64,000 bases of DNA from Methylotuvimicrobium alcaliphilum 20Z (lineage in GTDB: Bacteria; Pseudomonadota; Gammaproteobacteria; Methylococcales; Methylomonadaceae): positions 2,108,001 to 2,172,000 of the forward strand of contig NC_016112.1 of assembly GCF_000968535.2 (NCBI RefSeq), given 5' to 3'. The position numbers were made by a program, and so were the translations under genes. The notes under the pieces are model-generated. The model searched no databases, was not told the DNA's origin, and saw only the letters and a list, made by a program, of their open reading frames with translations. Positions 679 through 61,230 of this stretch are shown here, one piece after another. How positions within the stretch are numbered: the stretch's first letter is position 1; each line of letters begins with the position of its first letter.

Positions 679-969
679 TATACCCATTGTAGATGAAAAT
701 TCGGCTTTGGGGTGCCCGTCAAAGGTCGCCGTAAACCCAGCACCTAAATTCCATAGGTCTTTGGCAATGATTCAAAATCATGGCTTATTTAGGTGTTGGG
801 CAAATACGTCGATGTAGGCTCTATGCCAGCTCCATGCTGGCATAGCCTTTGCGAGCGCCATGGATGGCGTGTATTAGGGCAATGCAGGAGCAATTGCCGA
901 GGAGCAAAAATCGACCTAGCCTCCCCAAGGCCTCCTCCGACAATGCTGAAATTTGAAGTGCGAAGGTAT
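679..969 (-). repeat. Mosaic palindromic repeat, type A, copy A1
   Basis: This fills the 324-base gap between the PilZ gene and the pterin dehydratase. It starts at TATACCCATTGTAGAT and ends at a GAAATTTGAAGTGCG-type arm plus GGTAT, which are the two end signatures of the type-A family. Inside are nested hairpins: GCCAGC/GCTGGC, and a module shared with copy G2 (GCCATGGATGGCGTG followed by GGAGCAATTGCCGAGGAGC). About 50 bases near 740-790 are unique to this copy. A 60-codon open frame inside (793-975) is a by-product of the repeat. Confidence 0.8.
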
Positions 970-1001
970 GTTTAACTGTCTTGTATCCGTAAGGGACATT
1001 G

Positions 1002-1388
1002 TTAGTCGTACTTGATATATTTAAAACGAGGGTCGTCCGGTGTGCCCTCTAGCGATGAGCTTTCTTCTAATCCGGGTTGCCACATGACAACCTCCTCGAT
1101 TTTTTTTGCTAGTTCGAAATCTTTGTTCGTGATGCCTTTCGCGGCGTGGTTGACCAATTTGACGATTACGAAAGCATAGGACACGGTCAGGTCGGGATGG
1201 TGGAAGGCTGCTTCGGCTAGGTGACCTACGGTATTGACGATCATCAGTGTAGATTTCCAACCGCTTGTTTTGTATTTGCGACGAATCCATCCTTTTTCGA
1301 GATACCAGTTCGGTAATTCCGCTTTGAGTCTAGCTTCGACCTCTTGATCGGAATAGGTTTCTTCGTGTTTGCGTTCTCTCCAGCTCAT
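1002..1388 (-). CDS. phhB: Pterin-4a-carbinolamine dehydratase
   Basis: Pterin-4a-carbinolamine dehydratase/DCoH family. It dehydrates 4a-hydroxytetrahydrobiopterin to quinonoid dihydropterin and so recycles the cofactor of aromatic amino acid hydroxylases. The family signature is visible as an AAFHHPDL stretch followed by a conserved NHAAKGITNKDFELAKKIE helix. I start at the ATG at 1388 (128 residues) because a GAGG lies 8 bases upstream; an ATG 27 bases further upstream lacks one. No phenylalanine hydroxylase gene is adjacent, so its physiological partner cannot be read from the window. Confidence 0.85.
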   Translation of the reverse strand: MSWRERKHEETYSDQEVEARLKAELPNWYLEKGWIRRKYKTSGWKSTLMIVNTVGHLAEAAFHHPDLTVSYAFVIVKLVNHAAKGITNKDFELAKKIEEVVMWQPGLEESSSLEGTPDDPRFKYIKYD

Positions 1389-1438
1389 GATGATGACCTC
1401 ATTCAAATTAAGCACAATAATAGTGGTGGATGACGATA

Positions 1439-1942
1439 TTATTCATCCTCTTTGACGCATTCTAACAATGAATATTGGATGATGAATAGCGTGATTGCGA
1501 TGGGAAATAGCAAAAAATGTTCAATAAGCAACAAGCTGACAACTGAAAAACTCATCGCTACCAATGACAGTAAGCGCTTGCGCCCGGCAATCTTTAACAT
1601 GACTCTCAGCGTTTCTTGATCGATGTTCTTCCTTTGTCCGACAAAAAGTATTACCGTTATAAGAGAAACGAAAGCTAGAAAATATGGGAAATATACGAAC
1701 ATCGGCGCATCGGGTTCGAAAAAACGATGCCAATAAGCAAACCATACGAATAACGTGCTCGATGCATAAAAGTCATGCCAGTTAAGATAGCTGGGCTTAT
1801 TAACCAATATGCCGATTCCGCTAAGCGCCATTACCGCTCCCATGACCGGAACGACAAGCGGCGACAATAAATAGGCAACCAGCGGATGATTATTATCGGC
1901 AAGGTAGCCCAGGGATAGGCAAGTTAAAATGAAAATTGGCAT
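1439..1942 (-). CDS. Small multi-pass membrane protein
   Basis: A 167-residue, strongly hydrophobic protein that I do not recognise. About five hydrophobic stretches can be seen (roughly residues 1-14, 22-46, 58-70, 80-101 and 124-157), separated by short polar loops, with a basic loop KNIDQETLRVMLKIAGRKR before the last pair. It ends in an acidic tail, CVKEDE. It lies 50 bases upstream of, and in the same direction as, the pterin dehydratase gene, so the two may be co-transcribed. No function is assigned. Confidence 0.55.
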   Translation of the reverse strand: MPIFILTCLSLGYLADNNHPLVAYLLSPLVVPVMGAVMALSGIGILVNKPSYLNWHDFYASSTLFVWFAYWHRFFEPDAPMFVYFPYFLAFVSLITVILFVGQRKNIDQETLRVMLKIAGRKRLLSLVAMSFSVVSLLLIEHFLLFPIAITLFIIQYSLLECVKEDE

Positions 1943-2093
1943 AAATTTGTGAAAATGGTGGCATCATAGTGGATTGTATCTCAAAGACGGTATTTGCCAA
2001 TGAATCTATTGCTTGGATGTTAGTCATACGTGAAGATCGGTGATCAACCGGCTACAATGATGAGACTGTTGAGTAAAAACCGGAGGAACGCAC

Positions 2094-4505
2094 ATGTCAG
2101 AAAAATTCAAGTACATCCGTTGGTTTGAGGAACTAACGATCGACGATATTCCCTTGGTTGGCGGCAAGAATGCCTCGCTGGGCGAAATGTACCTCGAACT
2201 AGCCACCGAAGGCATCCGCGTGCCGAACGGCTTCGCGATTACTGCGGAAGGTTACCGGCACATGCTCGATAAAGCGGATGCCTGGGAAGCCTTACATGAG
2301 GCGCTCGATACCTTGAATCCGGACGATGTGAACGACTTGGCTAAGCGAGCCAGAAAAGCGCGAGATATCGTTTACGCGGCGCCGCTATCCGAAGACTTGG
2401 AGCATGAAATTCTGATTGCTTTCGATCAACTGCAGCGACAATACGATGAGGAATTGACCGTTGCGGTTAGAAGTTCGGCGACGGCCGAGGATTTGCCGAC
2501 CGCGAGCTTTGCGGGTCAGCAGGACACCTATCTGAACGTGCATAGCGGACAGGCTCTGCTCGATGCGTGTAAACGCTGTTTCGCGAGCCTGTTCACCGAT
2601 CGGGCGATTCATTATCGGATCGATCAAGGTTTCGATCATTTCAAGGTGTCGTTATCGATCGGCGTGATGAAAATGGTCCGTTCGGATTTGGCGTCGAGCG
2701 GCGTAATGTTCTCGATCGATACCGAATCGGGCTTCAAAGATGCGGTATTCATTACCGGTGCTTACGGCCTCGGTGAAAATGTCGTGCAGGGTTCGGTCGA
2801 CCCGGACGAGTTTTATGTGCATAAGCCTACCTTCGAGCAAGGTCATCGTTGTGTGTTGCGACGGTCGCTGGGCGCGAAAAAAATTAAGATGGTCTATAGC
2901 GAAGGCCGTACGCGCGAGCAAACTTGTAATGTCGTGACGTCAGCCGAGGAGCGTTCGCAATTTTGCTTGAGCGACGACGAGGTGCTGACTTTGGCCGATT
3001 ACGCGATCAAGATCGAGAAGCACTACAGCGCGAAGGCTGGCATGCCCAGGCCAATGGATATCGAATGGGCGAAGGACGGGCTGGACGGACAACTCTATAT
3101 CGTACAGGCACGGCCCGAAACAGTCGCATCGCAGTTGAGCGGGACGACGCTCGAACAATACGAACTGAAACAAAAGGCCGAGGCGATTGTGACAGGACGA
3201 GCGGTCGGCAGCAAGATCGCGGTCGGTACCGCGCATGTGATCAAAAATGTCAGCCAATTGAATACCTTCAAACCCGGCGAAGTGTTGATTACCGACATGA
3301 CCACACCGGATTGGGAACCGGTCATGAAAACGGCCGCAGCGATCGTGACCAATCGAGGTGGGCGCACCTGTCATGCCGCAATCATCGCTCGCGAGCTGGG
3401 TGTTCCGGCCGTGATCGGCTGCGACAATGCGACCGAAACGATTAAAACCGGTACGACTGTCACGGTATCCTGCGCCGAAGGCGATGCCGGCAAGGTTTAT
3501 GACGGCGAGTTGAGTTTCGATGTCAATAAGACCGATCTTTCCGGATTGAAGCGACCGAAAACTAAAATTATGCTGAATTTGGGCAATCCGGAATTGGCAT
3601 TCAAACTCAGCTTTTTGCCGAATGACGGCGTCGGATTGGCGCGGATGGAATTCATCATTACCGAGTTTATCAAGGCTCATCCGATGGCGTTGATTCATCC
3701 TGAACGCATACAAGATGCCGAAGAAAAAGCAAAGATTAAACGCTTGACCCGCTATTATGCGCAGCCGGAGGATTTTTTCATCGAGCGTCTTGCGGAGGGA
3801 GTCGGTACGATCGCTGCAGCGTTTTATCCGAAGCCGGTCGTGGTCAGAATGTCCGACTTCAAGACTAATGAGTATGCAACCTTGCTCGGCGGTCGCGGGT
3901 TCGAGCGCGACGAGGCGAATCCGATGATCGGTTTCAGAGGCGCTTCGCGTTATGTGCATCCCGATTATAAGGAAGGCTTCGCACTCGAATGCCGAGCGAT
4001 GAAGCGGGTTCGCGAAGACATGGGTTTGACCAACGTGATTCTTATGATTCCGTTTTGCCGCCGGGAGCAAGAAGCGGTGCGCGTTTTGGATTATATGGCC
4101 GAGCTCGGTTTGAAAAGAGGGGAGAACGGACTCGAAATTTATGTGATGTGCGAAATTCCGAATAATGTGATTCGTATCGATGCGTTTTCGAAGCTGTTCG
4201 ACGGATTTTCGATCGGCTCGAACGATTTGACACAATTGACGCTCGGCGTCGATAGGGATTCCGAAATACTTGCCGAAGATTTCGATGAGCGCGATCCGGG
4301 CGTTAAAGAAATGATTCGTATGGCTGTGGAAGGCGCGCGCCGTAACGGCAAGCATTCCGGCTTGTGCGGGCAGGCGCCATCCGATTATCCGGAAATGGCC
4401 GAATACCTAGTCGAAATTGGCATCGATTCGATGAGTTTGAATCCGGATACGGTGTTGCAGACGACCCAGCGGATTTTGAAAATGGAAGAACAATTAAAAG
4501 GGTGA
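2094..4505 (+). CDS. ppsA: Phosphoenolpyruvate synthase
   Basis: Pyruvate, water dikinase: pyruvate + ATP + water gives PEP + AMP + phosphate, in the cytosol. The 803-residue length is typical. The N-terminal ATP-grasp domain contains VRSSATAEDLPTASFAGQQ and ends near residue 350. The swivelling phosphohistidine domain has GGRTCHAAIIAREL with the phosphorylated His at about 427. The C-terminal PEP/pyruvate barrel has GSNDLTQLTLGVDRD and the catalytic Cys at about 758 in SGLCGQAPSD. A GGAGG lies about 8 bases before the ATG. In methanotrophs this enzyme supports gluconeogenic flux; here it opposes the pyruvate kinase-like gene at 22.6-24.6 kb. Confidence 0.95.
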   Translation: MSEKFKYIRWFEELTIDDIPLVGGKNASLGEMYLELATEGIRVPNGFAITAEGYRHMLDKADAWEALHEALDTLNPDDVNDLAKRARKARDIVYAAPLSEDLEHEILIAFDQLQRQYDEELTVAVRSSATAEDLPTASFAGQQDTYLNVHSGQALLDACKRCFASLFTDRAIHYRIDQGFDHFKVSLSIGVMKMVRSDLASSGVMFSIDTESGFKDAVFITGAYGLGENVVQGSVDPDEFYVHKPTFEQGHRCVLRRSLGAKKIKMVYSEGRTREQTCNVVTSAEERSQFCLSDDEVLTLADYAIKIEKHYSAKAGMPRPMDIEWAKDGLDGQLYIVQARPETVASQLSGTTLEQYELKQKAEAIVTGRAVGSKIAVGTAHVIKNVSQLNTFKPGEVLITDMTTPDWEPVMKTAAAIVTNRGGRTCHAAIIARELGVPAVIGCDNATETIKTGTTVTVSCAEGDAGKVYDGELSFDVNKTDLSGLKRPKTKIMLNLGNPELAFKLSFLPNDGVGLARMEFIITEFIKAHPMALIHPERIQDAEEKAKIKRLTRYYAQPEDFFIERLAEGVGTIAAAFYPKPVVVRMSDFKTNEYATLLGGRGFERDEANPMIGFRGASRYVHPDYKEGFALECRAMKRVREDMGLTNVILMIPFCRREQEAVRVLDYMAELGLKRGENGLEIYVMCEIPNNVIRIDAFSKLFDGFSIGSNDLTQLTLGVDRDSEILAEDFDERDPGVKEMIRMAVEGARRNGKHSGLCGQAPSDYPEMAEYLVEIGIDSMSLNPDTVLQTTQRILKMEEQLKG

Positions 4506-4574
4506 TAATCCTGAGCAGCCGGAGCCCATCGATACCCTTTGCGAGTCAAATTTGGTAGTTTAACCAAGCAGAAA

Positions 4575-4700
4575 ATGAAGTTCATGAATTAACTCAAGAG
4601 GTTGCCTGAGTATCCTTGTTAACCTCTCGGGTAAGCGAGAGTTTTACACAAATGAGTAACGAGTTATTGAATTAACTTGTTACTCTTCATGGTGAAATGC
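4575..4700 (+). repeat. Element E, copy E1
   Basis: An approximately 126-bp non-coding element between ppsA and selO. It begins ATGAAGTTCATGAATTAA, contains an AAGAGGTTGCCTGAG segment, and ends at a GAGTTATTGAATTAACTTG palindromic core followed by CATGGTGAAATGC. A diverged copy lies in the opposite orientation at 36751-36876. No terminal inverted repeat or target duplication was recognised. A short remnant of a type-A repeat end (ATACCCTTTGCGAGTCAAAT) lies just upstream, at about 4534-4553. Confidence 0.6.
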
Positions 4701-4713
4701 TTTTTTAGGATAA

Positions 4714-6192: not shown

Positions 6193-6347
6193 GATTCTAT
6201 TGGCTTTCAGCAAAGTGTTTGAGTTGGGCTATCTAAAAATAGCGTCCTAAATAAAAAGATAACTTGGACGGTATAATAGTTTAAAAGTTTACTAAAATAC
6301 TAGGGAATTGACCAAAAGATATGATTGGATTTAACTTCTAAATTGAT

Positions 6348-6615
6348 CCTGATTAGCAAGATGCTTCAGCTTGCCGAAGCTAAGTGTCCGAGCAGGGGCA
6401 AGTCGTAATCGCAAAAACTAAAATATGCTGTTACCCAAGCTCCAGCTTGGGTAACCTGTTCAGGAAGCTGGAGCTTCCGGGGTGTCTTTCCCAAGCTTGG
6501 GAAAAAGTGTGATGTGGGTTGACCGTTTTTAGCTTGACGCGAATGGCTTGCGAACCCCGTCCTGCTAGGGATATGCTGATCTTTGGGCTTTAGCTGAAGA
6601 AACTTGTTAATCAGG
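6348..6615 (+). mobile_element. MITE-like element B, copy B1
   Basis: This lies in the 516-base gap between selO and the parvulin lipoprotein gene. It is 268 bp long and bounded by inverted repeats of about 24 bp: CCTGATTAGCAAG at the left and CTTGTTAATCAGG at the right, extending inward through a TTCAGCT/AGCTGAA segment. It is flanked by AAATTGAT on the left and AAATTGGT on the right, an imperfect 8-bp target duplication. Inside are the palindromes TTACCCAAGCTCCAGCTTGG and CCCAAGCTTGGG, and half of a CCCCGTCC hairpin. There is no open reading frame for a transposase. Confidence 0.78.
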
Positions 6616-7680: not shown

Positions 7681-7700
7681 TTAGGTTTCCTTTGTAGGTT

Positions 7701-16231: not shown

Positions 16232-16393
16232 TATACCTATCGCACTTCAAATTTCGGTATTAGCGTATGGAGGCGTCGGGGTGTTCGGCAAAGGCTTTGG
16301 CTGCATGGATGCTGTCATAGAGCCTACATGGACGTATTCACGGCGTCCTTTGACGGGCACCCCGACGCCGAAATTTGACTAGCAAAGGGTATA
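16232..16393 (+). repeat. Mosaic palindromic repeat, type A, copy A2
   Basis: A 162-bp type-A copy with both ends: TATACCTATCGCACTTCAAA at the left and a CGCCGAAATTTGACTAGC-type arm at the right. The shared core is present, with the stretch GCCTACATGGACGTATTCAC. It starts 13 bases after the acr3 stop and splits the arsenic operon between acr3 and arsD. Its strong inverted symmetry could terminate or process the transcript there. Confidence 0.8.
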
Positions 16394-21170: not shown

Positions 21171-21274
21171 CCCGTCAAAGGACGCCGTGAATGTCGATTT
21201 TGCAGGAGCAAAAATCGACCTAGCACCCCGGTGCCTTCTTAGGCACTGCCGAAATTTGAAGTGCGGAAGGTATA
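21171..21274 (-). repeat. Mosaic palindromic repeat, type A, partial copy A3
   Basis: A 104-bp truncated copy with the right-hand part only. CCCGTCAAAGGACGCCGTGA leads straight into the hairpin module GTCGATTTT - GCAGGAGC - AAAATCGAC, then a CGAAATTTGAAGTGCGGAAG end and TATA. The TATACC-side half is missing. It lies between the DegS-like gene and the outer-membrane-like gene. Confidence 0.7.
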
Positions 21275-22293: not shown

Positions 22294-22515
22294 AGAAGGT
22301 GTGGGGTGAGCCTGCATCATAGGCGTTAACTTAAGAAAATAACGCGTCATTCCGCCAGGGATTGGCGGAATCCAGTGCCATGGATGGCAATGCGTAGCTT
22401 CACTTTCATGTAACCTGGATATCGGCAATCCATGCCGATATGACGAATAATGCACCATAGAGTAAGCACTAAATTGGCGCTTATGGGGTGTGCCTGTTGA
22501 GGAACGCCTTAAAAT
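22294..22515. repeat. Type-G repeat remnants (G1)
   Basis: This occupies much of the 539-base gap between the barrel-like gene and pyk. AAGGTGTGGGGTGAGCCTG at 22296 and GGGGTGTGCCTGTTGAGGAA near 22485 both match the left end of type-G repeats, so two broken left ends are present. Between them is a separate hairpin, TTCCGCCAGGGATTGGCGGAA, with the module CCATGGATGG beside it, and ATCGGCAATCCATGCCGAT. No gene was found in the remaining bases (22516-22647), which hold a GACGGCGTTCTTGCTGTCAA inverted region. Confidence 0.5.
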
Positions 22516-24737: not shown

Positions 24738-25784
24738 ATGAATAAACAACTTCTCGTATTTGCCGCGTTAGCCTTAATGACCGTTCATTTCACAGCTTCG
24801 GCTAGGAACGTGCGCGACAATATTGTTATTGTCGGTTCTTCGACCGTTTATCCTTTTACCACCGTGGTCGCCGAGCAGTTCGGCAGAATGACTCGATTCA
24901 GGGCGCCGATCGTCGAGGCGACCGGTTCCGGCGGCGGTTTGAAGCTGTTCTGTGCGGGCGTTGGTGTAAGACATCCCGATATCGCCAATTCTTCACGCAG
25001 AATCAAGAGTTCTGAATTCGCGGATTGCCAAAAGAATGGGGTGAGCAGCATCGTCGAAGTCAAGGTCGGTTATGACGGTATCACAATTGCTCGTTCCAAC
25101 AGAGGAAAAGCGTTTGATTTAACGTTGAAGCAGTTGTTTTTAGCATTGGCGAAGGAGGTTCCCGATCCGGATGGTTCCGAAAAAACCGTACCTAATCCTT
25201 ATACTAATTGGCGGCAAATCGATCCTTCTTTACCGGATTCCGCTATCGAAGTTATGGGACCGCCGCCGACTTCCGGCACTCGCGATGCGTTTGTGGAATT
25301 AGCGATGGAGGGCGGCTGCCAAGCCTTTCCATTCATCAAAGCTTTGAAAGACAGTAATGAAAGCGCCTATAGAACGATGTGTCATTCGATACGAGAGGAT
25401 GGCGCGTACGTTGAAGCCGGTGAAAACGATAACTTGATCGTGCAAAAGCTGGATACCAATCCGAATGCTCTGGGGATATTCGGTTTCAGTTTCCTGGACC
25501 AAAACACCGACAGGCTTTTCGGATTGAAAATCGATGGTGTCGAACCGGATTTCGATGAAATCGCTTCCGGTGCATATCCGGTTTCCAGGTCGATGTATAT
25601 TTATGTAAAAAAAGCGCATGTTCCGATGATACCGGGGTTAAAAGAGTTTCTGGAGGAATTTACCAGTGAAAAAGCCTGGGGCGAGGAAGGTTATCTTACA
25701 GATAAAGGCTTGATTCCAATGCCGGTGGATGAGCGTAAGCGCTTTGCCGATGATGTCCGGAATTTGAAGGAATTGGAGTTGTGA
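24738..25784 (+). CDS. pstS: Phosphate ABC transporter substrate-binding protein
   Basis: A 348-residue periplasmic phosphate receptor. The signal peptide MNKQLLVFAALALMTVHFTASA is followed by NIVIVGSSTVYPFTTVVAEQF, the phosphate-loop motif of the PstS family, and by GSGGGLKLFCAG and GPPPTSGTRDAFVELAM. It is somewhat longer than E. coli PstS and belongs to the PstS-like group with two internal Cys. Its stop codon lies inside the first unit of a heptanucleotide tandem repeat. Confidence 0.93.
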   Translation: MNKQLLVFAALALMTVHFTASARNVRDNIVIVGSSTVYPFTTVVAEQFGRMTRFRAPIVEATGSGGGLKLFCAGVGVRHPDIANSSRRIKSSEFADCQKNGVSSIVEVKVGYDGITIARSNRGKAFDLTLKQLFLALAKEVPDPDGSEKTVPNPYTNWRQIDPSLPDSAIEVMGPPPTSGTRDAFVELAMEGGCQAFPFIKALKDSNESAYRTMCHSIREDGAYVEAGENDNLIVQKLDTNPNALGIFGFSFLDQNTDRLFGLKIDGVEPDFDEIASGAYPVSRSMYIYVKKAHVPMIPGLKEFLEEFTSEKAWGEEGYLTDKGLIPMPVDERKRFADDVRNLKELEL

Positions 25785-25833
25785 AAGGTGAAAGGTGAAA
25801 GGTGAAAGGTGAAAGGTGAAAGGTGAAAGGTGA
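25781..25833 (+). repeat. Heptanucleotide tandem repeat (GTGAAAG)
   Basis: Seven perfect head-to-tail copies of GTGAAAG plus a partial eighth start at the last codon of pstS; the TGA stop is part of the first unit. The same heptamer, in degenerate form, recurs at 43634-43696. Confidence 0.9.
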
Positions 25834-25869
25834 ATCGGGGCTTGATAGCTACTCGAAATGCTGAATCAT

Positions 25870-28684: not shown

Positions 28685-28751
28685 TCCGCACCCTCAATTT
28701 CCCGAGAACTTTCATCATCCCGGGATTGCCAGGTCTTCATGAACGTTAGGT
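28685..28751 (-). repeat. Half of a type-D repeat in the pstB leader (D3)
   Basis: Read on the minus strand this gives TAACGTTCATGAAGACCTGG, then ATGAAAGTTCTC and a GGGTGCGG end: the left shoulder of copies D1 and D2 after phoU. The rest of the element is absent. It lies 30 bases before the pstB start, within the 132-base pstA-pstB gap. Confidence 0.65.
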
Positions 28752-30395: not shown

Positions 30396-30565
30396 TAACG
30401 TTCATGAAAGCCCGGCAATCACCCCGGCAAATGAAAGTACGAGACGTGGGGAGGGCGCGGTCACTCGCCCGACAGGACGCCGTGAATACGTCCATGTAGG
30501 CTCGATGGCGGCTATCCTGCCGCCAACGCCTGTCGATCGAGCAACCGCACCCTCTCCGGAACCGG
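30396..30565 (+). repeat. Mosaic palindromic repeat, type D, copy D1
   Basis: A 170-bp element with the shoulder TAACGTTCATGAA followed by inverted ends of the form GGNGCGGT-CTCG-GACAGG. The core ACGCCGTGAATACGTCCATG is the same core as in type-A copies. The internal hairpin is GGCGGCTATCCTGCCGCC. It follows the phoU stop by eight bases. Confidence 0.75.
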
Positions 30566-30633: not shown

Positions 30634-30804
30634 TAACGTTCATGAAGACCTGGTCATCGCATCGGCAAATGAAAGTTCTCTGGTGGCGGAGGGTGCGGTC
30701 ACTCGCCCGACAGGACGCCGTGAATACGTCCATGTAGGCTCGACGGCGGCTGTCCCTGCCGCCGACGCCTGTCGATCGAGCAACCGCACCCTCTTCGGAA
30801 CCGG
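30634..30804 (+). repeat. Mosaic palindromic repeat, type D, copy D2
   Basis: A near-duplicate of D1, starting 238 bases downstream in the same orientation, with the shoulder, ends and core all preserved. The hairpin loop has changed to GGCGGCTGTCCCTGCCGCC. The two copies and their spacer make a tandem repeat. Bases 30805-31005 contain no recognisable gene. Confidence 0.75.
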
Positions 30805-31389: not shown

Positions 31390-31550
31390 TATACCCATCG
31401 CAGATCAAAATTCGGCACCAGGGTGTCCGTCAAAGGACGCCGTGAATATAATCCCTGTAGGCTCTATGCCAGCTCCATGCTGGCAAAGCCTTTGCCGCAC
31501 ACCCTGGCGCCTCTTCAGGCACTGCCGAAATTTGAAGTGCGAAAGGTATA
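31390..31550 (-). repeat. Mosaic palindromic repeat, type A, copy A4
   Basis: A 161-bp full copy bounded by TATACCCATCGCAGATC and GAAATTTGAAGTGCGAAAGG plus TATA. It has the hairpin GCCAGCTCCATGCTGGC and the common core. It ends 7 bases from the stop codon of the cyclic-diphosphoglycerate-synthetase-like gene, where it could act as a transcript end. Confidence 0.85.
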
Positions 31551-32895: not shown

Positions 32896-32962
32896 CTTAA
32901 TTCATTTTGGTAGAAGGTAATTCACTCCAGCAATTCCCAGTTTGAGCAGTTTCGCCGATTTT

Positions 32963-33177
32963 AGGGTGTGGGGTATGCCTGTCGAGGAACGCCGTAAACC
33001 CATCCATGGGGGCTTGGCGGCAGCTCGAACGCCAAGGATGGCGTGTAGTAGGGCAATGCAGGAGCAATTGCCGAGGAGCAAAAATCTGCAAGCGCCAAGG
33101 ATGGCGTGAATGCAGATTTTGCAGGAGCAAAAATCTGCCCTGCTGCCGACATCCTCGCCAAGCATACCCCACACCCT
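32963..33177 (+). repeat. Mosaic palindromic repeat, type G, copy G2
   Basis: A 215-bp element in the 617-base gap upstream of the spermidine synthase-like gene. Inverted ends AGGGTGTGGGGTATGCC and GCATACCCCACACCCT enclose GAGGAACGCCGTAAACCCATC, a variant of the shared core. Inside are two copies of the module GCCAAGGATGGCGTG, GGAGCAATTGCCGAGGAGC, and the hairpin GCAGATTTT - GCAGGAGC - AAAATCTGC. Confidence 0.8.
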
Positions 33178-33310
33178 TTTAGATCTCCAAATTGGGAATT
33201 GCTGAATTCACTCGAGATAGAGGATTTATATCATTTTCGAAGCCAAACCCTCTAGAATGAATTAAAACTCGGCAGCCTTCTGACCAATTTCGATTTTCGA
33301 AAGGCTATGG

Positions 33311-33468
33311 ATACCTTTCGCACTTCAAATTTCGGCAATGTTCGAGGAGGCGTCGGAGTGTTCGACAAAGGCTTTGCCAGCATGGATCTGGCATAGAACC
33401 TACATGGACGTATTCACGGCGTCCTTTGACGGGCACCCCGGCGCCGAATTTTGATCTGCGATGAGTAT
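33311..33468 (+). repeat. Mosaic palindromic repeat, type A, copy A5
   Basis: A 158-bp copy bounded by ATACCTTTCGCACTTCAAAT and CCGAATTTTGATCTGCGATG, lying 45 bases before the spermidine synthase-like start. The hairpin arm is GCCAGCATGGATCTGGC. Copies G2 and A5 lie in the same gap, separated by about 130 bases with no gene. Confidence 0.85.
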
Positions 33469-33512
33469 GACGCGAACATAGCACTCTAATTTTGGGCCTA
33501 CCAGGAAAATTT

Positions 33513-35273: not shown

Positions 35274-35392
35274 TATACCTTTCGCACTTTAAATTTCGGC
35301 AGTGCCTAAGGAGACACCGAGGTGCTGGCAAAGGCTTGATGGCGGCTTTCCCTGCCGCCGTCACCTGCCAATCGAGTTACCGAACCTGCTTA
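35274..35392 (+). repeat. Chimeric repeat A6 (type-A left end, type-D right end)
   Basis: The left end is the type-A sequence TATACCTTTCGCACTTTAAA. The right end, CCTGCCAATCGAGTTACCGA plus ACC, is a type-D end. The hairpin GGCGGCTTTCCCTGCCGCC lies between. About 119 bp in the 369-base gap after the spermidine synthase-like gene. The rest of that gap (35064-35273) shows nothing recognisable. Confidence 0.6.
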
Positions 35393-35432
35393 CCTTGCAT
35401 TAAAAATAGGGCAATTATTTATGACCAAACCC

Positions 35433-38432: not shown

Positions 38433-38744
38433 CATGCCTTTCGCACTTCAAATTTCGTCGATATGACCTGATTAGCAAGATGCTTCAGCTTGCCGAAGTG
38501 AACTGTCCGAGCAGTGGCCAGTCGCAGCCACTTCTGCGGGACGGGTTATTTAACCCGTCCCCAACGTTTCGGTTTACCCTAAACAATTCGGCTGACTTCG
38601 GCCAAAGTCAAAACGTTTAGGACGGGGTTGCAAACCCCGTCCTGCTAGGGAATTGCTGATCTTTGGGCTTTAGCTGAAGAAACTTGCTAATCAGGTCTTT
38701 TGATGGTCACCCCCGGTGCCGAATTTTGATCAGCGATGGATATA
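38433..38744 (+). repeat. Mosaic repeat type A, copy A7, interrupted by element B2
   Basis: The left end CCTTTCGCACTTCAAATTTC is at 38436-38456. The right end GGTGCCGAATTTTGATCAGC with GCGATGGATATA is at 38715-38744. Between lies the whole of element B2 (38467-38695), so B2 inserted into a type-A repeat. Most of the A core was lost around the insertion. Confidence 0.7.
38467..38695 (+). mobile_element. MITE-like element B, copy B2
   Basis: 229 bp with the same inverted ends as B1 and B3 (CCTGATTAGCAAG and CTTGCTAATCAGG). Its interior differs: it carries a whole GGACGGGGTTGCAAACCCCG hairpin of the type found at 50997 and 63387, followed by CTGCTAGGGAATTGCTGATC, which all B copies share. The 8 bases on the two sides do not match, so no target duplication is left at this site. 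Confidence 0.75.
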
Positions 38745-43570: not shown

Positions 43571-43633
43571 TGTCGTTAATTTAAGAAAGGATTTGATCGA
43601 ATTATACTCAATAAGTCAAGGGGTGAGGTTTAA

Positions 43634-43696
43634 AGGTGAAAGAAGAAAGGTCAAAGGTGCAAGTAGCAAGGGGAAAGGTGAAAGGTGAAAGGTGAA
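43634..43696 (+). repeat. Degenerate heptanucleotide array (AGGTGAA)
   Basis: Nine consecutive 7-base units read AGGTGAA, AGAAGAA, AGGTCAA, AGGTGCA, AGTAGCA, AGGGGAA, then AGGTGAA three times. This is the same heptamer, in another phase, as the perfect array after pstS (25781-25833), but decayed. It lies at the nadK side of the 531-base nadK-hrcA gap. Confidence 0.8.
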
Positions 43697-43750
43697 AGGG
43701 GGTAGTCGAAAAAAGCTATTTTTAGCTAATTACTGTGTTCCCGCGTTTTA

Positions 43751-49989: not shown

Positions 49990-50004
49990 TCTCACAATCG
50001 ATTT

Positions 50005-50337
50005 CCTGATTAGCAAGATGCTTCAGCTTGCCGAGGCCAAGTGTCCGAGCAAGGACCAGTCGTAGTCACAAAAACCAAAATATGCTGTTACCCAAGCTCC
50101 AGCTTGGGTAACCTGTTCAGGAAGCTCTAGCTTCCCGCCAATCAAGAAAGATTGAACGAGCGAGTTGGGGTTGACTGAGAATGTGCGGAGGTTGTGTCGG
50201 TCTCAGGAAGCTGGAGCTTGGGAAATGGCGTGATGTGGGTTGGCCGTTTTTAGCTTGACGCGCATGGCTTGCGAACCACGTCCTGCTAGGGGATATGCTG
50301 ATCTTTGGGCTTTAGCTGAAGAAACTTGCTAATCAGG
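50005..50337 (+). mobile_element. MITE-like element B, copy B3, with exact 8-bp target duplication
   Basis: 333 bp with the same inverted ends as B1. It is flanked on both sides by ATCGATTT (49997-50004 and 50338-50345), an exact 8-base target duplication. It shares the TTACCCAAGCTCCAGCTTGG hairpin with B1 but has about 65 extra bases, including a second CAGGAAGCTGGAGCTTGGGA stretch. No transposase is encoded. It fills the first part of the 730-base gap after dapB. Confidence 0.88.
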
Positions 50338-50356: not shown

Positions 50357-50503
50357 TTATCCCCTTTGCTGGTCAAATTTCGACGCAGGGGTGTCGAATA
50401 CGTCCATGTAGGTTCTGTGACAGCATTCCTGCTGTCACAGCCTTTTCCGAACACCTCGGCGCCTTCATACGTCAATGTCGAAATTTGAAGTTCGATGGGT
50501 ACC
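50357..50503 (-). repeat. Diverged mosaic repeat, type A, copy A8
   Basis: A 147-bp copy with altered ends (CCCTTTGCTGGTCAAATTTC at the left, GAAATTTGAAGTTCGATGGG at the right). The core survives as CGAATACGTCCATGTAGG and the hairpin has become TGACAGCATTCCTGCTGTCA. It lies about 20 bases after B3. Bases 50504-50719 show only a short ATGAAGTG...CTTCATGGTGAA piece that resembles the end of element E. Confidence 0.65.
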
Positions 50504-53928: not shown

Positions 53929-53931
53929 GAG

Positions 53932-55638: not shown

Positions 55639-55798
55639 AGGTGTTTCCTCCAAATAGTCCGCATGTAGAGCGGAATTATAGCCAATTGTTCATGCTCAAG
55701 GAACTCGCGATGTTGTCGGATGTTCGGGTTCATGCTCAGTGTGAGCACTTTAACTTAGCTATGATATAGGTTTCAACTCATCATTTTTGAGTAAAATC

Positions 55799-55813
55799 AT
55801 CAGAAATGCTGAT
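55799..55813. promoter_or_regulatory. Candidate LysR box in the fdsB-lysR gap
   Basis: ATCAG - AAATG - CTGAT is a T-N11-A inverted repeat of the usual LysR type. It lies in the 253-base divergent gap, about 80 bases before the lysR start and 160 before fdsB. Position and form fit regulation of the formate dehydrogenase operon by the divergent regulator. Confidence 0.5.
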
Positions 55814-55891
55814 AAAGGCGTTGGTGAAAGTTGGGCGAGTCGTTAAAATGATTTTGCAATAACATTATTTAATATGATTATTCAGTAATTT

Positions 55892-56773: not shown

Positions 56774-56935
56774 GGGTTGATACTTTGTAATGACTTGCGC
56801 AGGGGTGCAGAGACTTTTATGATTACGACTCATAGTTTGAAAGCATGAGACCAAAGTCGGAAATTGGTTTATGACCATGGAAAGCATATTCTATCCGCAC
56901 TATTCTCTGCCTCCCTGCGCCTCCGCGCGATGAAA

Positions 56936-57144
56936 TATACCTTTCGCACTTCAAGTTTCGGCAGTGCCTGAGGAGGCGCCAGGGTGCTAGGTCGATTTTT
57001 GCTCCTGCAAAATCGACATTCACGCCATCCATGGTGCTCGCAAAGGCTTTGCCAGCATGGAGCTGGCATAGAGCCTACAGGGATGTATTCACGGCGTCCT
57101 TTGACGGACACCCTGGCGCCGAATTTTGATCTGCGATGGGTATA
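56936..57144 (+). repeat. Mosaic palindromic repeat, type A, copy A9
   Basis: A full 209-bp copy bounded by TATACCTTTCGCACTTCAAG and AATTTTGATCTGCGATGGGT plus ATA. The hairpin module GTCGATTTTTGCTCCTGCAA / AAATCGAC is inserted together with GCCATCCATGG. It lies in the 676-base gap between the LysR and metallohydrolase genes. No gene is seen in 56774-56935. Confidence 0.88.
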
Positions 57145-57151
57145 TTTATTT

Positions 57152-57440
57152 TACTCCCTTTTGATCGAAAAACCGCCTAAGAATAAAAGGTATGGGATGT
57201 GTCTATCGAGGAACGCCGTGAACCCATCCATGGGGCTTGACGGCAGCGTTCGAACGCCAAGGATGGCGTGTATTAGGGCAACGCAGGGCAGAAAAATACT
57301 CCTGCATTTTCTGCATTCGTTACATCCTTGTAACTCAGCAGTTGCCGAGGAGCAAAAATCTGCTCTGCTGCCGACATCCTCGCTAGCCACACCCCATACC
57401 TTCATGAAAGTTAACTAATTTTTGAGTGTAAAGGGAGTAG
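57152..57440. repeat. Hairpin element H, copy H2, split by repeat G3
   Basis: ACTCCCTTTTGATCGAAAAA at 57153-57172, plus CCGCCTAAGAATAAAAGG, matches one side and the loop of H1 (19838-19884). The other arm, AAAGGGAGTAG, lies at 57430-57440. Repeat G3 (57187-57402) sits between them, so G3 inserted into an H element. The right arm ends at the AGGAG Shine-Dalgarno of the next gene. Confidence 0.6.
57187..57402 (+). repeat. Mosaic palindromic repeat, type G, copy G3
   Basis: A 216-bp element with inverted ends AAGGTATGGGATGTGTCTA and GCCACACCCCATACCTT. It has the core GAGGAACGCCGTGAACCCAT, the module GCCAAGGATGGCGTG, and a longer inserted hairpin (GCAGGGCAGAAAAATACTCC, CTGCATTTTCTGCATTC) followed by GTTGCCGAGGAGCAAAAATC. 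It lies inside element H2. Confidence 0.8.
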
Positions 57441-57449
57441 GAGTTTGTT

Positions 57450-58364
57450 TTGCGTTATTTAATTATTGCCATTTCGTCGTTTTTTTGTGTAGCGACCCAT
57501 GCCGGCGCCGTGTTGAGCATTGAGCAAGTCGCTGACGGTATTTATGTGCATCAAGGCAAACATGAGTGGCCCGACCATAAAAATCACGGTGCGATTGCGA
57601 ATATCGGTTTCATCGTCGGTGAACGCTGCGTCGCGGTGATCGATACCGGCGGTAATCCGGAAGAAGGAAGATCGCTCAAGCGCGCGATTGCCAAAACGAC
57701 TGGTAAACCAATTTGTTATGTGATTAATACCCATGTTCATCCCGATCATATTTTCGGCAATATCGCATTTAAGGAATCGGGCACTCAATTTGTCGGACAT
57801 CATAAACTAGCCAGAGCAATGGCCGCGCGTGGGCAATTCTATATCGATAAGGCAGAAGATCAGATTGGCATGGCATTAACCGCCGAACATATCATTCCGC
57901 CCGATATAGAGGTTGAAAAAACGTTGCTCTTAGATCTGGGGGGGCGGGAATTGCTGTTGACCGCGCATCCGACCGCGCATACCGATAACGACTTGAGCAT
58001 CTACGACCGGAAGACCGATACCTTATGGCTCGGCGATTTGTTTTTTATCGGACATTTGCCGACTCTCGACGGCAGTTTAAAAGGTTGGTTGGTCGAACTC
58101 GCCGAATTGGAACAAAAGTCATTCAAGCAGGTCATTCCCGGGCACGGGCCAGTGGTCACGGATTGGCCGAAGAGTCTCGAGCCGCAACAACGTTATCTCG
58201 GCACTTTATTGACCGAGATTCGTAACATGATTAAAAACGGAAGATTTATTGAAGAGGCGATCGAGCAGGTTGGTTATGAATTTAAAGGCCAATGGCAGTT
58301 GTTCGACGAATTTCATAAAAAAAACGTCACGGCGGCGTTTGCCGAATTGGAATGGGAAGATTGA
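57450..58364 (+). CDS. Quinoprotein-relay zinc metallohydrolase (MBL fold)
   Basis: A 304-residue periplasmic metallo-beta-lactamase-fold protein. MRYLIIAISSFFCVATHAGA is a signal peptide. The zinc motif is THVHPDH at residues 94-100; further ligands are the His of TAHPTAHTDND, the Asp of WLGDLFF and the His of VIPGHGPV. It resembles the 'quinoprotein relay system zinc metallohydrolase' group linked to PQQ-dependent alcohol dehydrogenases. The start is TTG 57450, supported by AGGAG six bases upstream and no other start. It pairs with the SoxYZ-like gene behind it. Confidence 0.75.
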   Translation: MRYLIIAISSFFCVATHAGAVLSIEQVADGIYVHQGKHEWPDHKNHGAIANIGFIVGERCVAVIDTGGNPEEGRSLKRAIAKTTGKPICYVINTHVHPDHIFGNIAFKESGTQFVGHHKLARAMAARGQFYIDKAEDQIGMALTAEHIIPPDIEVEKTLLLDLGGRELLLTAHPTAHTDNDLSIYDRKTDTLWLGDLFFIGHLPTLDGSLKGWLVELAELEQKSFKQVIPGHGPVVTDWPKSLEPQQRYLGTLLTEIRNMIKNGRFIEEAIEQVGYEFKGQWQLFDEFHKKNVTAAFAELEWED

Positions 58365-58417
58365 TATTTCGTTTATTAAGGAACGAGCATGAAATAACTT
58401 CGACAAATGCTGAAGGG

Positions 58418-58662
58418 GGTTCGGTGGCTCGATTGACAGGCGTCGGCGGCAGGGCAGATTTTTGCTCCTCGGCAACTGCTGAGTTACAAGGATGTAACGA
58501 ATGCAGAAAATGCAGGAGTATTTTTCTGCCCTGCGTTGCCCTAATACACGCCATCCGTGGCGTAATGCAAAATCTGCATTCATGCCATCCATGGCAATCA
58601 GATTCCGCCGTCGAGCCTACATGAATGTATTCACGGCGTCCTGTCAAGCGAGTCGCCGAACC
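58418..58662 (-). repeat. Mosaic repeat with type-D ends and type-G-like interior
   Basis: A 245-bp element whose ends GGTTCGGTGGCTCGATTGAC and CAAGCGAGTCGCCGAACC are of the type-D class. The interior is the inverted form of G3's long hairpin (GTTACAAGGATGTAACGAAT, AATGCAGGAGTATTTTTCTG) and the core TACATGAATGTATTCACGGC. It fills most of the 375-base gap between the relay metallohydrolase and the SoxYZ-like carrier. Confidence 0.7.
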
Positions 58663-58739
58663 TCCGCAGTGCCTAAAGCTTGTAGAAGTAAATTTGTGCA
58701 TATTCCTAACCCATTAATTTACCTAACAGGAGAAATAAA

Positions 58740-59567
58740 ATGATAAATAAAATAATTGGGGCCCTTTGCTTGGCTTTAATAGCAAATGGGGCTTTGGCCG
58801 CCGAAGACGAGTCGGCCTGGACGTCGCAATTGAAAGATCAATTTTTCGCCGGACGCACGATTACCGAATCCGATGCCGTGATTGAACTTGATGCGCCTTA
58901 TCGAGCCGAAGACCCCGCTTTGGTTCCGTTGAAAATAGTTAGTAAAATCCCGCAAACCAACGACAAATACATCAAAAAGATTTTGGTGCTGGTCGACAAG
59001 AATCCTTTTCCCTATGTCGGCGAATTCGAATTCACGCCCGATAGCGGTAAAGCGGATTTAGCGATGAGAGTTCGTGTCAATACCTATAGCTTTGTTCGCG
59101 CGATCGCCGAAACGAGCGACGGCCAGCTTTATATGACCAAGAAATTCGTCAAAGCCAGCGGCGGCTGTTCGGCGCCGATCGGTGCGGATTTGGATGCGGC
59201 AATGCAACGGCTCGGCAAAGCTAAATTCAGGTTGACCGATAATATCAAGCCGGGCGAGGCGAATGAGGCGCAATTATTCATTAGCCATCCCAACATCACC
59301 GGCATGCAGATGGATCAAGTGACGCGCTTCGTCAAAAAATCGCATTTCGTCAATCAGGTTAATGTGTCATTCAATGACAAGCCGATCTTGACGGCGAAAA
59401 CCGATATCGCGATCAGTGCCGATCCAAATTTCCGGTTTTATTTCATACCGGAAAAGAACGGCATTTTGAAAGCGGAATTTACCGATATGTCTTGTCTAAG
59501 TCCAACCAGCCGAGCGAACTGTAAAGCAGGCCAAAGCTTTACCGAAACTTTGGCTGTAAAACCGTAA
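58740..59567 (+). CDS. SoxYZ-like carrier protein
   Basis: A 275-residue fusion of a SoxY-like and a SoxZ-like domain. MINKIIGALCLALIANGALA is a signal peptide. The SoxY half (about 30-150) ends in SGGCSAPIG with Cys143, the presumed carrier residue, placed internally because the SoxZ half (about 155-272, NEAQLFISHPNITGMQMDQVTRFVKKSHFVNQVNVSFNDKPIL) is fused on. Such proteins are known as quinoprotein dehydrogenase-associated SoxYZ-like carriers. AGGAG lies 7 bases upstream. No sox or xox gene is in the window. Confidence 0.78.
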   Translation: MINKIIGALCLALIANGALAAEDESAWTSQLKDQFFAGRTITESDAVIELDAPYRAEDPALVPLKIVSKIPQTNDKYIKKILVLVDKNPFPYVGEFEFTPDSGKADLAMRVRVNTYSFVRAIAETSDGQLYMTKKFVKASGGCSAPIGADLDAAMQRLGKAKFRLTDNIKPGEANEAQLFISHPNITGMQMDQVTRFVKKSHFVNQVNVSFNDKPILTAKTDIAISADPNFRFYFIPEKNGILKAEFTDMSCLSPTSRANCKAGQSFTETLAVKP

Positions 59568-59620
59568 AACAGTATATGACCGGCATTGACGAAACCAAAG
59601 CCGACATGGTTTGGCTTCGT

Positions 59621-60208
59621 CTAGCTGCTTGGATCGGGTTCGAAAGCGACTTTGTCGTAAATTTCTTTTAGGCTTAACACGCAGTCGATGCTTTCCAGGT
59701 GAACGCTTGTATCAAGGCCGGCGGTTTCGGTCAAAAGCCAAGCGTCGCCTTGCCGGACATAGCGCTCGATCAGCGGCTGGTCTTGAGCGACCAACAGATA
59801 TTCGCGAAGCGATTCGATCTTGCGGTAATGCGAAAATTTAGCGCCTCTATCGTAGGCTTCGGTAGAAAGCGATAACACCTCGATGATAACCGACGGGTTT
59901 ATCAATGTGTCGACATGGTTGTCTTCGAATTGCGGCGTGTCGCAAGCCACTGCGATATCCGGATAATGATAGCTGCGTGCCTTTTTAGCCTTGACCCGCA
60001 TGTCATTGATGTAAACCTCGCAGGGGCGGCTTTTGAGTTGAGCTCTTAGTTCACTCGCAATATTGATATTAATCAAATTATGTTCGCGGCTTGCGCCGGT
60101 CATCGCGAACATTTCGCCGTCGACGTATTCGCTTTTGATTTGCGCTTGGCGTTCGATTGCTAAATATTCTTCTTGGGTGTAATACTTTTTTTTGAGTACA
60201 GCAGACAT
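59621..60208 (-). CDS. Uma2-family PD-(D/E)XK nuclease-like protein
   Basis: A 195-residue protein of the Uma2/DUF820 family. The fold shows a YVDGEMFAMTGASREHNLI start, the catalytic-type YPDIAVACD and the strand VIIEVLSLSTEAYDRGAKF, with TKRAKYHYPDI-type acidic residues of the PD-(D/E)XK motif. AGGAGG six bases upstream of the ATG marks the start. Uma2 proteins are abundant in some bacteria, many in cyanobacteria; their targets are unknown. Its reading frame is isolated from neighbouring genes. Confidence 0.78.
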   Translation of the reverse strand: MSAVLKKKYYTQEEYLAIERQAQIKSEYVDGEMFAMTGASREHNLININIASELRAQLKSRPCEVYINDMRVKAKKARSYHYPDIAVACDTPQFEDNHVDTLINPSVIIEVLSLSTEAYDRGAKFSHYRKIESLREYLLVAQDQPLIERYVRQGDAWLLTETAGLDTSVHLESIDCVLSLKEIYDKVAFEPDPSS

Positions 60209-60278
60209 TAACAGCCTCCTTTGTTTGAGCTCATCCGATTCGCCAAAAGCCTCTTTTGATGGGCGAATCGTGAGGGTG

Positions 60279-60656
60279 TTATTTCACGAAACAACTTTTT
60301 TCGGCATAAGCTTCGGCTTCTTCCATCAGCTTCCTCAATCGTTTGGCTTCCGGCGGGTCGCGGAATACGCCGCCGGCCTCGCCCGGCGTTTTACGCATAA
60401 AGCCGAAGGTTCTAGCTTGATCGTAATCGGCAAAACTCATTTTTTCAGCGATTTTGTCTATTTTGCATCCGCAGCCGTATTGGGTGATGTAGGTCAGCCC
60501 GCCTTTCTTTGCGATACAGCTCAGAACATAATCGACGCGTTCCTGAGTCGGAAAATCGCTGACAAAAGGCGCGTCTTCAGCAAGTTTTTCTTGAGTTGTG
60601 CTGCACCCGGCAAGTGTGGCTAGAATGGCTGAACCGATTAGAAGTTTCATTTTCAT
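60279..60656 (-). CDS. Cys-rich lipoprotein of unknown function
   Basis: A 125-residue lipoprotein. MKMKLLIGSAILATLAGC has a lipobox with lipidated Cys18. The mature part contains the short segment SCIAKKGGLTYITQYGCGCKIDKIAEKMSFADYDQA, with Cys at the start, two in YGCGC, and one near the C-terminus (SCFVK). The CxC pair in a small secreted protein suggests disulfide or metal binding. Its position beside the quinoprotein-relay genes makes a link possible, but the gene is on the other strand with a Uma2 gene between. Confidence 0.55.
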   Translation of the reverse strand: MKMKLLIGSAILATLAGCSTTQEKLAEDAPFVSDFPTQERVDYVLSCIAKKGGLTYITQYGCGCKIDKIAEKMSFADYDQARTFGFMRKTPGEAGGVFRDPPEAKRLRKLMEEAEAYAEKSCFVK

Positions 60657-60719
60657 GCGAAGGTCTCTAATTCCTGATTTGATAAAGTGAAAAAATAGTA
60701 ATTATTCACATTCCCCTTA

Positions 60720-60820
60720 TCGTTCCCACGCTCCAGCGTGGGAATGAAGACCGAGACGCTCTAGCGTCTCGTACCGCTGGAGCGGTTCTCAGGCATTCCC
60801 TCGCAGAGCGTGAGAATGAC
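60720..60820. repeat. Triple-hairpin repeat F
   Basis: Three successive palindromes: TTCCCACGCTCCAGCGTGGG, GAGACGCTCTAGCGTCTC, and CCGCTGGAGCGG, followed by an ATTCCC...GAGAATGAC pair. Together they span about 100 bases with no open frame, in the 631-base gap before the DUF302-like gene. The region 60821-61021 shows nothing recognisable. Confidence 0.7.
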
Positions 60821-61021
60821 AATTGCCGGGGGACTGAATAGTTACAAAAAAATGCTCTTAACCCAGCCTTAACAAATGTAGTGTCTACAGTCTAAGTTAT
60901 TGAAGCATAAAAATTAAACAACGTGCCAAAATGGCTTTGCATAGCCTTAATATTCAGTAGCTTATGCTCGGTAAATATTAAAACTGGGCTAACAAAAGTA
61001 TGGTCGGTTTATTAATTTACG

Positions 61022-61230
61022 TATACCCGTCGTAGATCAAAACTCGGCGCCTGGGTGTCCGCTAAAGGATGCCGTGAATACGTCCATGTAGGCTCTATGC
61101 CAGCTCCATGCTGGCAAAGCCTTTATGAACGCCATGGATGGCGTGAATGTCGATTTTGCAGGAGCGAAAATCGACCGGACACCCAGGCGCCTCCTCTGGC
61201 AATGCCGAAATTTGAAGTGCGAAAGGTATA
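61022..61230 (-). repeat. Mosaic palindromic repeat, type A, copy A10
   Basis: A 209-bp full copy bounded by TATACCCGTCGTAGATC and GAAATTTGAAGTGCGAAAGG plus TATA. It carries the modules GCCAGCTCCATGCTGGC, GCCATGGATGGCGTG and the hairpin GTCGATTTT - GCAGGAGC - GAAAATCGAC. It ends 57 bases from the DUF302-like gene's stop codon. Confidence 0.88.

Follow-up and report, generated by a model that had tools for sequence, protein, structure and literature searches.

The closest described relatives of the repeats analysed here are YPAL/RU-2 (~168 bp) of Yersinia and Ysr224 (Rfam RF02770). In PMC2229807, YPAL is presented as a dispersed, intergenic and recently mobile repeat without TA ends, whose target duplications span 3 to 26 bp, and PMC12112432 reports that several Ysr224 copies are transcribed in Y. 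ruckeri with differing profiles. Other systems are comparable in individual features, each of which recurs in the present element. First, MITEs of the ERIC, RUP, NEMIS and Nezha kind are short, geneless and present in many copies, with inverted-repeat ends and target duplications. Second, REP/BIME sequences, with their RAYT, are hairpins found in hundreds of copies, with GTAG before the hairpin (PMC3733652). Third, the CsrB, CsrC and RsmX-Y-Z sponge RNAs carry ANGGA hairpin loops at suitable spacing.

The window, 64,000 nucleotides of Methylotuvimicrobium alcaliphilum 20Z (NC_016112.1, positions 2,108,001 to 2,172,000), was described in an earlier note as holding at least fifteen elements with a common core and three alternative end types, matching no named family. 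Direct and inverted repeats are present at nearly every place named there, and the repeats are confirmed as real and far above chance level. A scan with one combined 26-mer core, in which up to five mismatches were allowed and 0-2 were found, gave nine sites (16321-, 30477+, 30715+, 32989+, 33397-, 57072-, 57213+, 58614- and 61069+), and the figure of fifteen core-bearing elements therefore overstates their number in the window. Of six Markov controls, one gave a single site and the other five none. A-type ends occur at 17 sites with no more than five mismatches (679, 16232, 16367, 21248, 31390, 31524, 33310, 33443, 35274, 38433, 38718, 50358, 50477, 56936, 57118, 61022 and 61204), compared to one in a single control run. 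In the whole genome, the core is found at 321 sites with at most two mismatches (159 forward and 162 reverse) against 0 + 0 in the reversed control, so that it is neither a single-copy sequence nor alike only by chance. A strand bias among the genomic core matches listed was discarded because many reverse-strand sites are missing from them. A fuzzy copy search in the genus also missed some copies, for example that at 61069, and its numbers and the genus gene-orientation counts are thus lower bounds. Viral carriage of the element was rejected, as an exact core pattern gave no match in viral_contigs.

Comparison of filled and empty sites in sister species revealed terminal inverted repeats together with a target duplication of TA for shell A, TAA for D, TAA for D' and 9 bp for G, with one site for each shell and all four sites adjoining the window in the same genome. 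Four further G copies have 9-bp flanking repeats by eye, one of them within a D element, and G' showed no clear duplication. What had been taken for alternative ends of one family are separate MITE shells with distinct inverted repeats and target duplications, and the three types become no fewer than five (A, D, D', G and G'), to which the surroundings of the copies at 30.4 and 30.7 kb are added. One hairpin is present in different shells. Empty sites in sister genomes show that elements and hairpin modules have been inserted into each other, and that modules entered hairpin loops leaving no visible target duplication. Together, the empty sites with target duplications and the nested insertions support the proposal of a modular non-coding mobile family with palindromes inserted into palindromes. 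Compared to known MITEs, the family is distinguished by several distinct shells with one common structured cargo and by hybrid and nested forms; compared to YPAL, it is enclosed by MITE shells, to which the 2-, 3- and 9-bp duplications in this genus belong. It is very probable that a YPAL/Ysr224-type hairpin is carried as cargo in several MITE shells of the genus.

Most elements in the window have an A shell. Those at 16232..16393 (- strand; core 16321-, ends 16232 and 16367) and 33310..33469 (-; repeats, end pair and scan) contain the core, and those at 56936..57144 (-) and 61022..61230 (+) contain both the core and module M; positions 56987-57028 of the former are missing in genome G004, and the latter is missing entirely at the matching G002 site. 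In the element at 679..970 (+; repeats, fold and A-end scan), the core is split, by eye, by a CCCAGCACC..GGTGTTGGG hairpin insertion and followed by module M. The core is slightly altered at 31390..31550 (+; repeats, a 161 bp end pair and end scan), and the core at 50358..50503 (+; repeats and end scan) lacks its left half, with the right part alone seen by eye from 50357. Three others are, by eye, half, hybrid or re-filled shells. The half element at 21171..21274 (+) has the core start joined to an M2 hairpin (21198) and a right arm (end 21248-), and the shell at 38433..38744 (+; repeats, sequence and end scan) has its interior occupied by an unrelated palindromic element (38467-38695). The element at 35274..35430 (+, right border approximate) has lost its core and joins an A-type left end and hairpin 2 to a D'-type right arm as in locus L209; repeat comparison and sequence agree with its earlier description as an A/D hybrid. 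A G/D' hybrid is present in sister genome G003.

The D-type hairpins at 30450..30556 (+, inner stem GGGCGCGGTCACTCGCCCGACAGG) and 30688..30795 (+), the second 238 bp downstream of the first, were both identified by repeats, fold and scan. The D-shell element at 58380..58706 (-) has a nested segment (58455-58604) in its hairpin-2 loop, which is missing in G002 and G003. Among the G types, the element at 32928..33204 (+; repeats, fold, a 277 bp end pair and scan) has CAGCAATTCCC ends, a G-type core and two M modules, and the G' shell at 57151..57440 (+) has TACTCCCTTT ends, a G-type core and a nested segment (57252-57364) missing in G003 and G005. The half element at 28685..28745 (no strand assigned) is the outer flank of a D-type copy, recognized by eye against 30634-30700, in which the core scan was empty. 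The G-type arm fragment at 22294..22315 (+) is doubtful because it is just a two-mismatch match to the G shell (at 22298) without a core, and the control run also gives one.

The shells probably spread via transposases acting in trans; they insert into one another, and their loops receive or exchange hairpin modules. No autonomous transposon with shell ends was found in ~850 kb read from five genomes, and the sole long pair of A ends, spanning 3471 bp from 35273, is apparently coincidental. IS630 was rejected as the source of the TA-type ends, as DDE_3 has no match in the genome. A conserved neighbour gene was rejected as well: around 134 core sites, of which 54 lie within a predicted ORF, no neighbouring protein matched more than two proteins from other loci. 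Y1 transposase genes were found in all six genomes of the genus. They speak for a rival reading of the repeat as a single-stranded-DNA mobile element, in which the enzyme recognizing the one-strand hairpins would be a transposase or recombinase of REP/RAYT-like or another kind and the loop motif would act as its DNA signal. The strand-specific fold described below, a GTAG that closely precedes hairpin 2 when the core strand is read, and the loop modules gained without visible duplication all point in this direction. However, among 30 Y1 loci (from 32 matches), an element or shell signal lies within ~1.5 kb in four and flanks the gene on both sides in none; the readable spread in the genus follows MITE shells with ordinary duplications, and no recurrent protein accompanies the core sites. 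A single-stranded-DNA element is thus rather unlikely. A RAYT origin was rejected on the same lack of linkage, and the present element also differs from REP/BIME sequences in its far greater length and in a constant stretch of ~25 nt.

The statement that the repeats match no named family does not hold for the core. The core AGCCTACATGGATGTATTYACGGCG, with its flanking hairpin and stem, is contained in RU-2, and RU-2 as printed in PMC2759123 has a like fold, a GGA spacing of 21 nt and a GGA strand lower by 8.7 kcal/mol. Judged by sequence, identical in kind, and by a like predicted fold, the core is the three-way-junction hairpin of YPAL/RU-2 and Ysr224. At the gathering threshold, Rfam gave no match in the window. 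A weak-threshold search of four loci outside it gave a Ysr224 match at locus L156 that aligns over the core, but at 31.5 bits, below the gathering score of 70, and on the opposite strand. At the same locus, mir-629 scored above Ysr224 on both strands (38.6 and 38.1 bits), though its alignment covers the stem, among the six of eight matches shown. A scored match to the element is present in 85 of 370 gammaproteobacterial genomes, which is a lower bound, and the 285 genomes without a scored match indicate that the element is dispensable. For a bare hairpin in another genus, compared between G633 and G186, the flanks are too diverged and gave no clean empty site.

The hairpin element consists of a long outer stem, a fixed hairpin 1 and a hairpin 2 with a conserved loop. 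In the gamma-wide alignment (51 of 90 copies aligned), both-sided changes occur in 28 of 34 predicted pairs. The gamma-wide counts exclude 12 loci whose sequence is Methylotuvimicrobium- or Methylomonas-like; 90 copies were kept for the loop analysis, with contig-end copies and those with a weak hairpin 2 excluded. On the core strand of the outer stem, A-C mismatches exceed G-T mismatches in 58 of 87 gamma-wide loci, with the reverse in 5 and ties in 24, and the totals are 144 A-C versus 29 G-T (137 versus 48 in the genus). In 72 of 88, the lower fold is that of the GGA strand. The A-C excess in 58 of 63 untied loci shows that one strand has been preserved in foldable form. No clear strand bias was found in the hairpin-2 stems (8 G-T and 11 A-C; 2 and 6 in the genus); in the analysis that gave these and the genus outer-stem totals, 96 of 101 hairpin-2 copies had an outer stem passing the score.

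The outer arms vary between copies and are mostly still paired in two genomes, G397 and G310. Earlier arm comparisons used the best-scoring copies and so favour well-paired ones, a bias that the count in these two genomes was built to avoid. In the G397 arms, 2198 changes are both-sided with pairing kept, 83 are one-sided and give G-U, and 100 are broken, with 5 of 32 copies omitted for failing the stem score (by eye, four of these resemble recombinants with another repeat and the fifth has no hairpin 2). In G310, 17 of 19 sites were read, and the one of these 17 that failed the score was omitted. The D and G' elements, each compared between orthologues from four genomes, differ too little to demonstrate compensation at a single locus. 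In the abstract of PMC8794818, template switching is put forward as the process that produces perfect hairpins and keeps them so, and as one that can account for unequal base-pair frequencies in stems. The strand bias may thus be partly mutational in origin, which makes a working RNA less likely and makes it more likely that the family is pure MITE debris, functionless, with shells and core inherited together and arms paired solely through template switching at replication. The few one-sided changes in the G397 arms would fit such debris. However, it offers no reason why hairpin-2 loops are conserved across species with quite different stems, and it is considered quite improbable. Under the preferred reading of a working RNA, the arms change fast and yet stay paired most likely through template switching between arms together with selection for the folded RNA.

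The CsrA consensus RUACARGGAUGU has invariant ACA and GGA, the latter located in the loop (PMC4347634), and CsrA is described as binding ANGGAN hairpin loops and bridging sites 10-63 nt apart, with an optimum >18 nt (PMC7652899). In 89 of 90 copies the hairpin-2 loop region contains GGA, which reads as TCC on the core strand, and CANGGANG is present in 71 of 90. The single exception has its loop GGA on the core strand. The GGA-GGA spacing is 19-21 nt in those 89 and exactly 20 in 74. Hairpin 1 is UACANGGANGUA, with the exact UACARGGAUGU in 20 of 90; its invariance arises by construction because hairpin 1 is part of the search pattern, while hairpin 2 lies outside it. Each unit therefore presents ANGGA in hairpin loops at two sites within the 10-63 nt range, and the preferential fold of the GGA strand holds for the outer stem. 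In module M, two GGA loops sit on stems that vary (76 modules; the loop is part of the search pattern), and one transcript cannot present both sets, as the loops of M lie on the strand opposite to the core's. Compared to the CsrB/CsrC/RsmX-Y-Z RNAs, the present element has two sites per unit and is a dispersed mobile repeat giving a putative RNA, with no promoter of its own known.

A csrA match is found in 84 of 85 genomes with the element, G214 being the exception, compared to 240 of 285 without it (Fisher p 5.7e-5, ignoring phylogeny and genome size). Between tandem genes, the GGA strand shows no preference for sense (14 sense versus 25 antisense gamma-wide, 15 versus 24 in the genus), and a simple 3'-UTR model was rejected on this basis. 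This count omits 23 locus-edge and 12 long-ORF copies gamma-wide and 2 long-ORF copies in the genus. A role in RNA stability or RNase action has been proposed for ERIC, as for YPAL. The present repeat could likewise be a general RNA stability or termination element, whose stem would shield 3' ends or be cut by RNase, the loop motif being kept for other reasons. Convergent gene pairs around the copies outnumber divergent ones gamma-wide (27 versus 11), but not in the genus (8 versus 8); PMC2229807 suggests an effect of YPAL on the stability of upstream transcripts, and the transcription of Ysr224 copies in Y. ruckeri (PMC12112432) would also agree. This explanation accounts neither for the presence of GGA in 89 of 90 hairpin-2 loops nor for the constant ~20 nt between the sites, and it is unlikely.

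The best reading, to which we give a probability of roughly 0.4, is a MITE-borne, YPAL-type RNA element with predicted CsrA binding. Its working strand would be the one with A-N-G-G-A-N loops, whose RNA would form two CsrA/RsmA binding hairpins ~20 nt apart on a long stem. From this arrangement, a transcribed copy would be expected to bind a CsrA dimer, and could act locally by marking its mRNA or contribute to a dispersed sponge, with possible benefit to the host or to the element. That the GGA strand works as RNA in this way is a tentative proposal, at somewhat less than even odds, and gene orientation and the strand of the Ysr224 model count against part of it. A wider and rather doubtful extension is a class-wide gammaproteobacterial mobile RNA element, present in tens to hundreds of copies in many genomes as the cargo of any active MITE. 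Each copy would be a putative CsrA/RsmA dimer binder when transcribed, read-through would feed a dispersed sponge, and template switching would renew the arms so that they stay foldable yet too different to recombine.

Collectively, these results unite repeats known piecemeal, as Yersinia YPAL and as an Rfam sRNA ranked among the most prevalent in bacteria, into a large and poorly recognized core family in many gammaproteobacterial genera, for which CsrA is a concrete candidate partner. The long stems, variable yet paired between copies, form a natural series that provides material for studying hairpin evolution, and the family represents a case of one structured cargo common to different miniature transposons.

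The earlier note described a mosaic family of nested palindromic repeats with a common core and three alternative end types, and the existence of these repeats was borne out: in the window, the core occurs at nine sites and A-type ends at 17, versus 0 to 1 in controls. Across the source genome, the core pattern occurs at 321 sites with up to two mismatches, while the reversed pattern gives 0. A full A element used as query matched 17 of 41 genomes, its own included; all six genomes of the genus were among them, and the remaining 24 gave no match. An exact 25-mer core scan of named genomes returned at least 120 stretches, and among the 80 matches listed with titles, 79 bear gammaproteobacterial names (including Stenotrophomonas, Shewanella, Ectothiorhodospira, and Alcanivorax) and one reads "Proteobacteria bacterium." Among 370 genomes of the class, a covariance model of the element matched at least 85, a lower bound because 11 candidates were scored per genome. 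On a draw of 299 genomes of the phylum, for which the share of other classes is not given, the model found 22 matches: the source genome and 21 others, all from its own class.

The core represents a previously described element, of the YPAL type, in a different form. Nearly all copies read have a common fold in which a long outer stem is combined with hairpin 1 and with a second hairpin (hairpin 2) whose stem is free and whose loop is fixed; the outer stem is present in 96 of 101 copies having hairpin 2, and a few of the 40 folds listed lack the common fold. Rfam family Ysr224 matches the element below threshold, yet the alignment covers the core and the hairpin. A sequence-string search of papers led to RU-2, the YPAL of Yersinia, whose sequence, as printed in the accessible part of the source, folds similarly to the element (PMC2759123). 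YPAL is described as a repeat that is mobile and intergenic, whose duplications measure 3 to 26 bp and whose targets span or adjoin dyad symmetry (PMC2229807). Ysr224 is listed in the top 20 of bacterial sRNAs by prevalence (PMC9029176), and several Ysr224 copies are reported as transcribed in Y. ruckeri (PMC12112432).

The end types are separate miniature transposons, as follows from their distinct target duplications at filled and empty sites. These were read by comparing 244 kb of the source genome (G000) with syntenic stretches of four sister genomes (G002 to G005), with borders set by eye and one filled/empty site, beside the window, for each of A, D, D′, and G. The A element is flanked by duplicated TA, the D and D′ elements (ends GGAA.. 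and GGATTT..) by TAA, and the G element (ends CAGCAATT..) by a 9-bp duplication in which CTTTCTCTA is repeated; the G′ duplication is ambiguous. By eye, 9-bp repeats also flank four more G copies, one of which lies within a D element. Minimal sizes recur at about 160 bp for A, 165 bp for G, and 181 bp for D. Hybrids occur as well, with an A end joined to a D′ end at 35274 and a G end joined to a D′ end in G003. G002 (scaffold C1, 120367-120513) carries a further MITE that G000 lacks; its ends are CCCAGYCTTAACA, and its target duplication is TTAA. A Y1 transposase of 157 aa occurs five times in G003 and once in G005 (loci L125, L126, L131, L137, L143, and L147); none of these six loci carries the studied repeats on both flanks, and an A element lies about 200 bp from the copy at L147.

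Comparison of filled with empty sites showed that hairpin modules are gained at loops inside elements. The D copy at 58.4 kb has 150 bp in place of the hairpin 2 loop ATAG, a stretch missing from G002 and G003; a related module occupies the same position in a different D copy of G002. Modules also lie within one another, in two to three levels, with each module sitting in the loop of its predecessor. Two neighboring copies share a 122-bp segment (57254-57375 and 58442-58563) in inverted order; the two versions are 98% identical and both are absent in G003, which looks like recent conversion between inverted neighbors. At 722-805, a hairpin insertion (CCCAGCACC..GGTGTTGGG) interrupts the core; the core is also interrupted at G000:C2:1053729-1053850, where an overlap of five query bases suggests a short duplication. 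A second, unrelated palindromic family (6347-6615, 38467-38695, and 50004-50337; ends CCTGATTAGCAAG..CTTGCTAATCAGG, inner CCCCGTCC hairpin) has its 38467 copy inside an A shell. Runs of the heptamer GAAAGGT lie at 25783-25834 and 43631-43702.

The arms change quickly and in concert, as indicated by copies picked by the core alone in two genomes. In G397, 27 of 32 copies have good stems; with 26 pairs taken from each, 693 pairs are Watson-Crick, five G-U, and four other. Comparison between copies gives 2198 positions with differences on both sides but pairing retained, 83 with a difference on one side and G-U, and 100 where the pair is broken. The corresponding between-copy counts in G310 (16 of 17 copies read) are 951, 78, and 91, and hairpin 2 is near-identical in most copies. 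Template switching is a published route to making and mending such stems, according to the available part of PMC8794818. At the single empty site compared for the origin of the arms at insertion, the flanks were too diverged.

The conserved fold appears, from the sequences, to be that of the GGA strand, which carries GGA in its loops. When Watson-Crick pairs alone were scored in the outer stem of 87 loci on the opposite (core) strand, A-C mismatches outnumbered G-T in 58, the reverse held in five, and 24 were ties (totals, 144 versus 29). An A-C mismatch on the core strand is a G-U pair on the other, so the GGA strand fold appears to be the one kept. Predicted folding energy is lower on this strand in 72 of 88 copies; hairpin 2 stems alone are without clear strand bias (8 G-T to 11 A-C). 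Mutation through template switching, as far as the accessible text of PMC8794818 goes, is a possible source of the bias. A strand-specific fold is compatible with both RNA and single-stranded DNA, and we infer RNA to be the better fit, since RNA pairing admits G-U.

The GGA strand would present two CsrA-like loops at a fixed distance, which are candidate CsrA sites. Hairpin 1 reads UACANGGANGUA, partly fixed by the search pattern. Hairpin 2, whose loop lies outside that pattern, reads CANGGANG in 71 of 90 copies and has GGA at its loop in 89 of 90, and the two GGA motifs are 19-21 nt apart. For CsrA, the published consensus is RUACARGGAUGU, its GGA lying within a hairpin loop (PMC4347634), and the available text of PMC7652899 gives an ANGGAN loop for RsmE sites and has one dimer bridging sites 10-63 nt apart, with an optimum above 18. 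Variants of the additional hairpin module M, such as TTACAAGGATGTAA, also contain the consensus, on the other strand. A csrA match was found in 84 of 85 genomes with the element versus 240 of 285 without it, in a test that ignores relatedness. Against the CsrA reading count gene orientation (GGA strand 29 sense versus 49 antisense, gamma-wide and genus sets combined) and the strand of Ysr224.

Collectively, the mosaic has a YPAL-type core, with several MITE shells, together with hairpin modules, around it; the earlier note, which proposed a modular mobile family that it could not match to a named one, was right in essence in its observation and half right in its interpretation. In the literature text that could be searched, we found no paper stating core unity, the strand-specific fold, CsrA-like loops, concerted arms, or multi-shell carriage. 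Of the new points, the strongest are core unity across much of the class, the strand-specific fold, the concerted arms, the paired CsrA-like loops at a fixed distance, and the carriage of one core by different shells.
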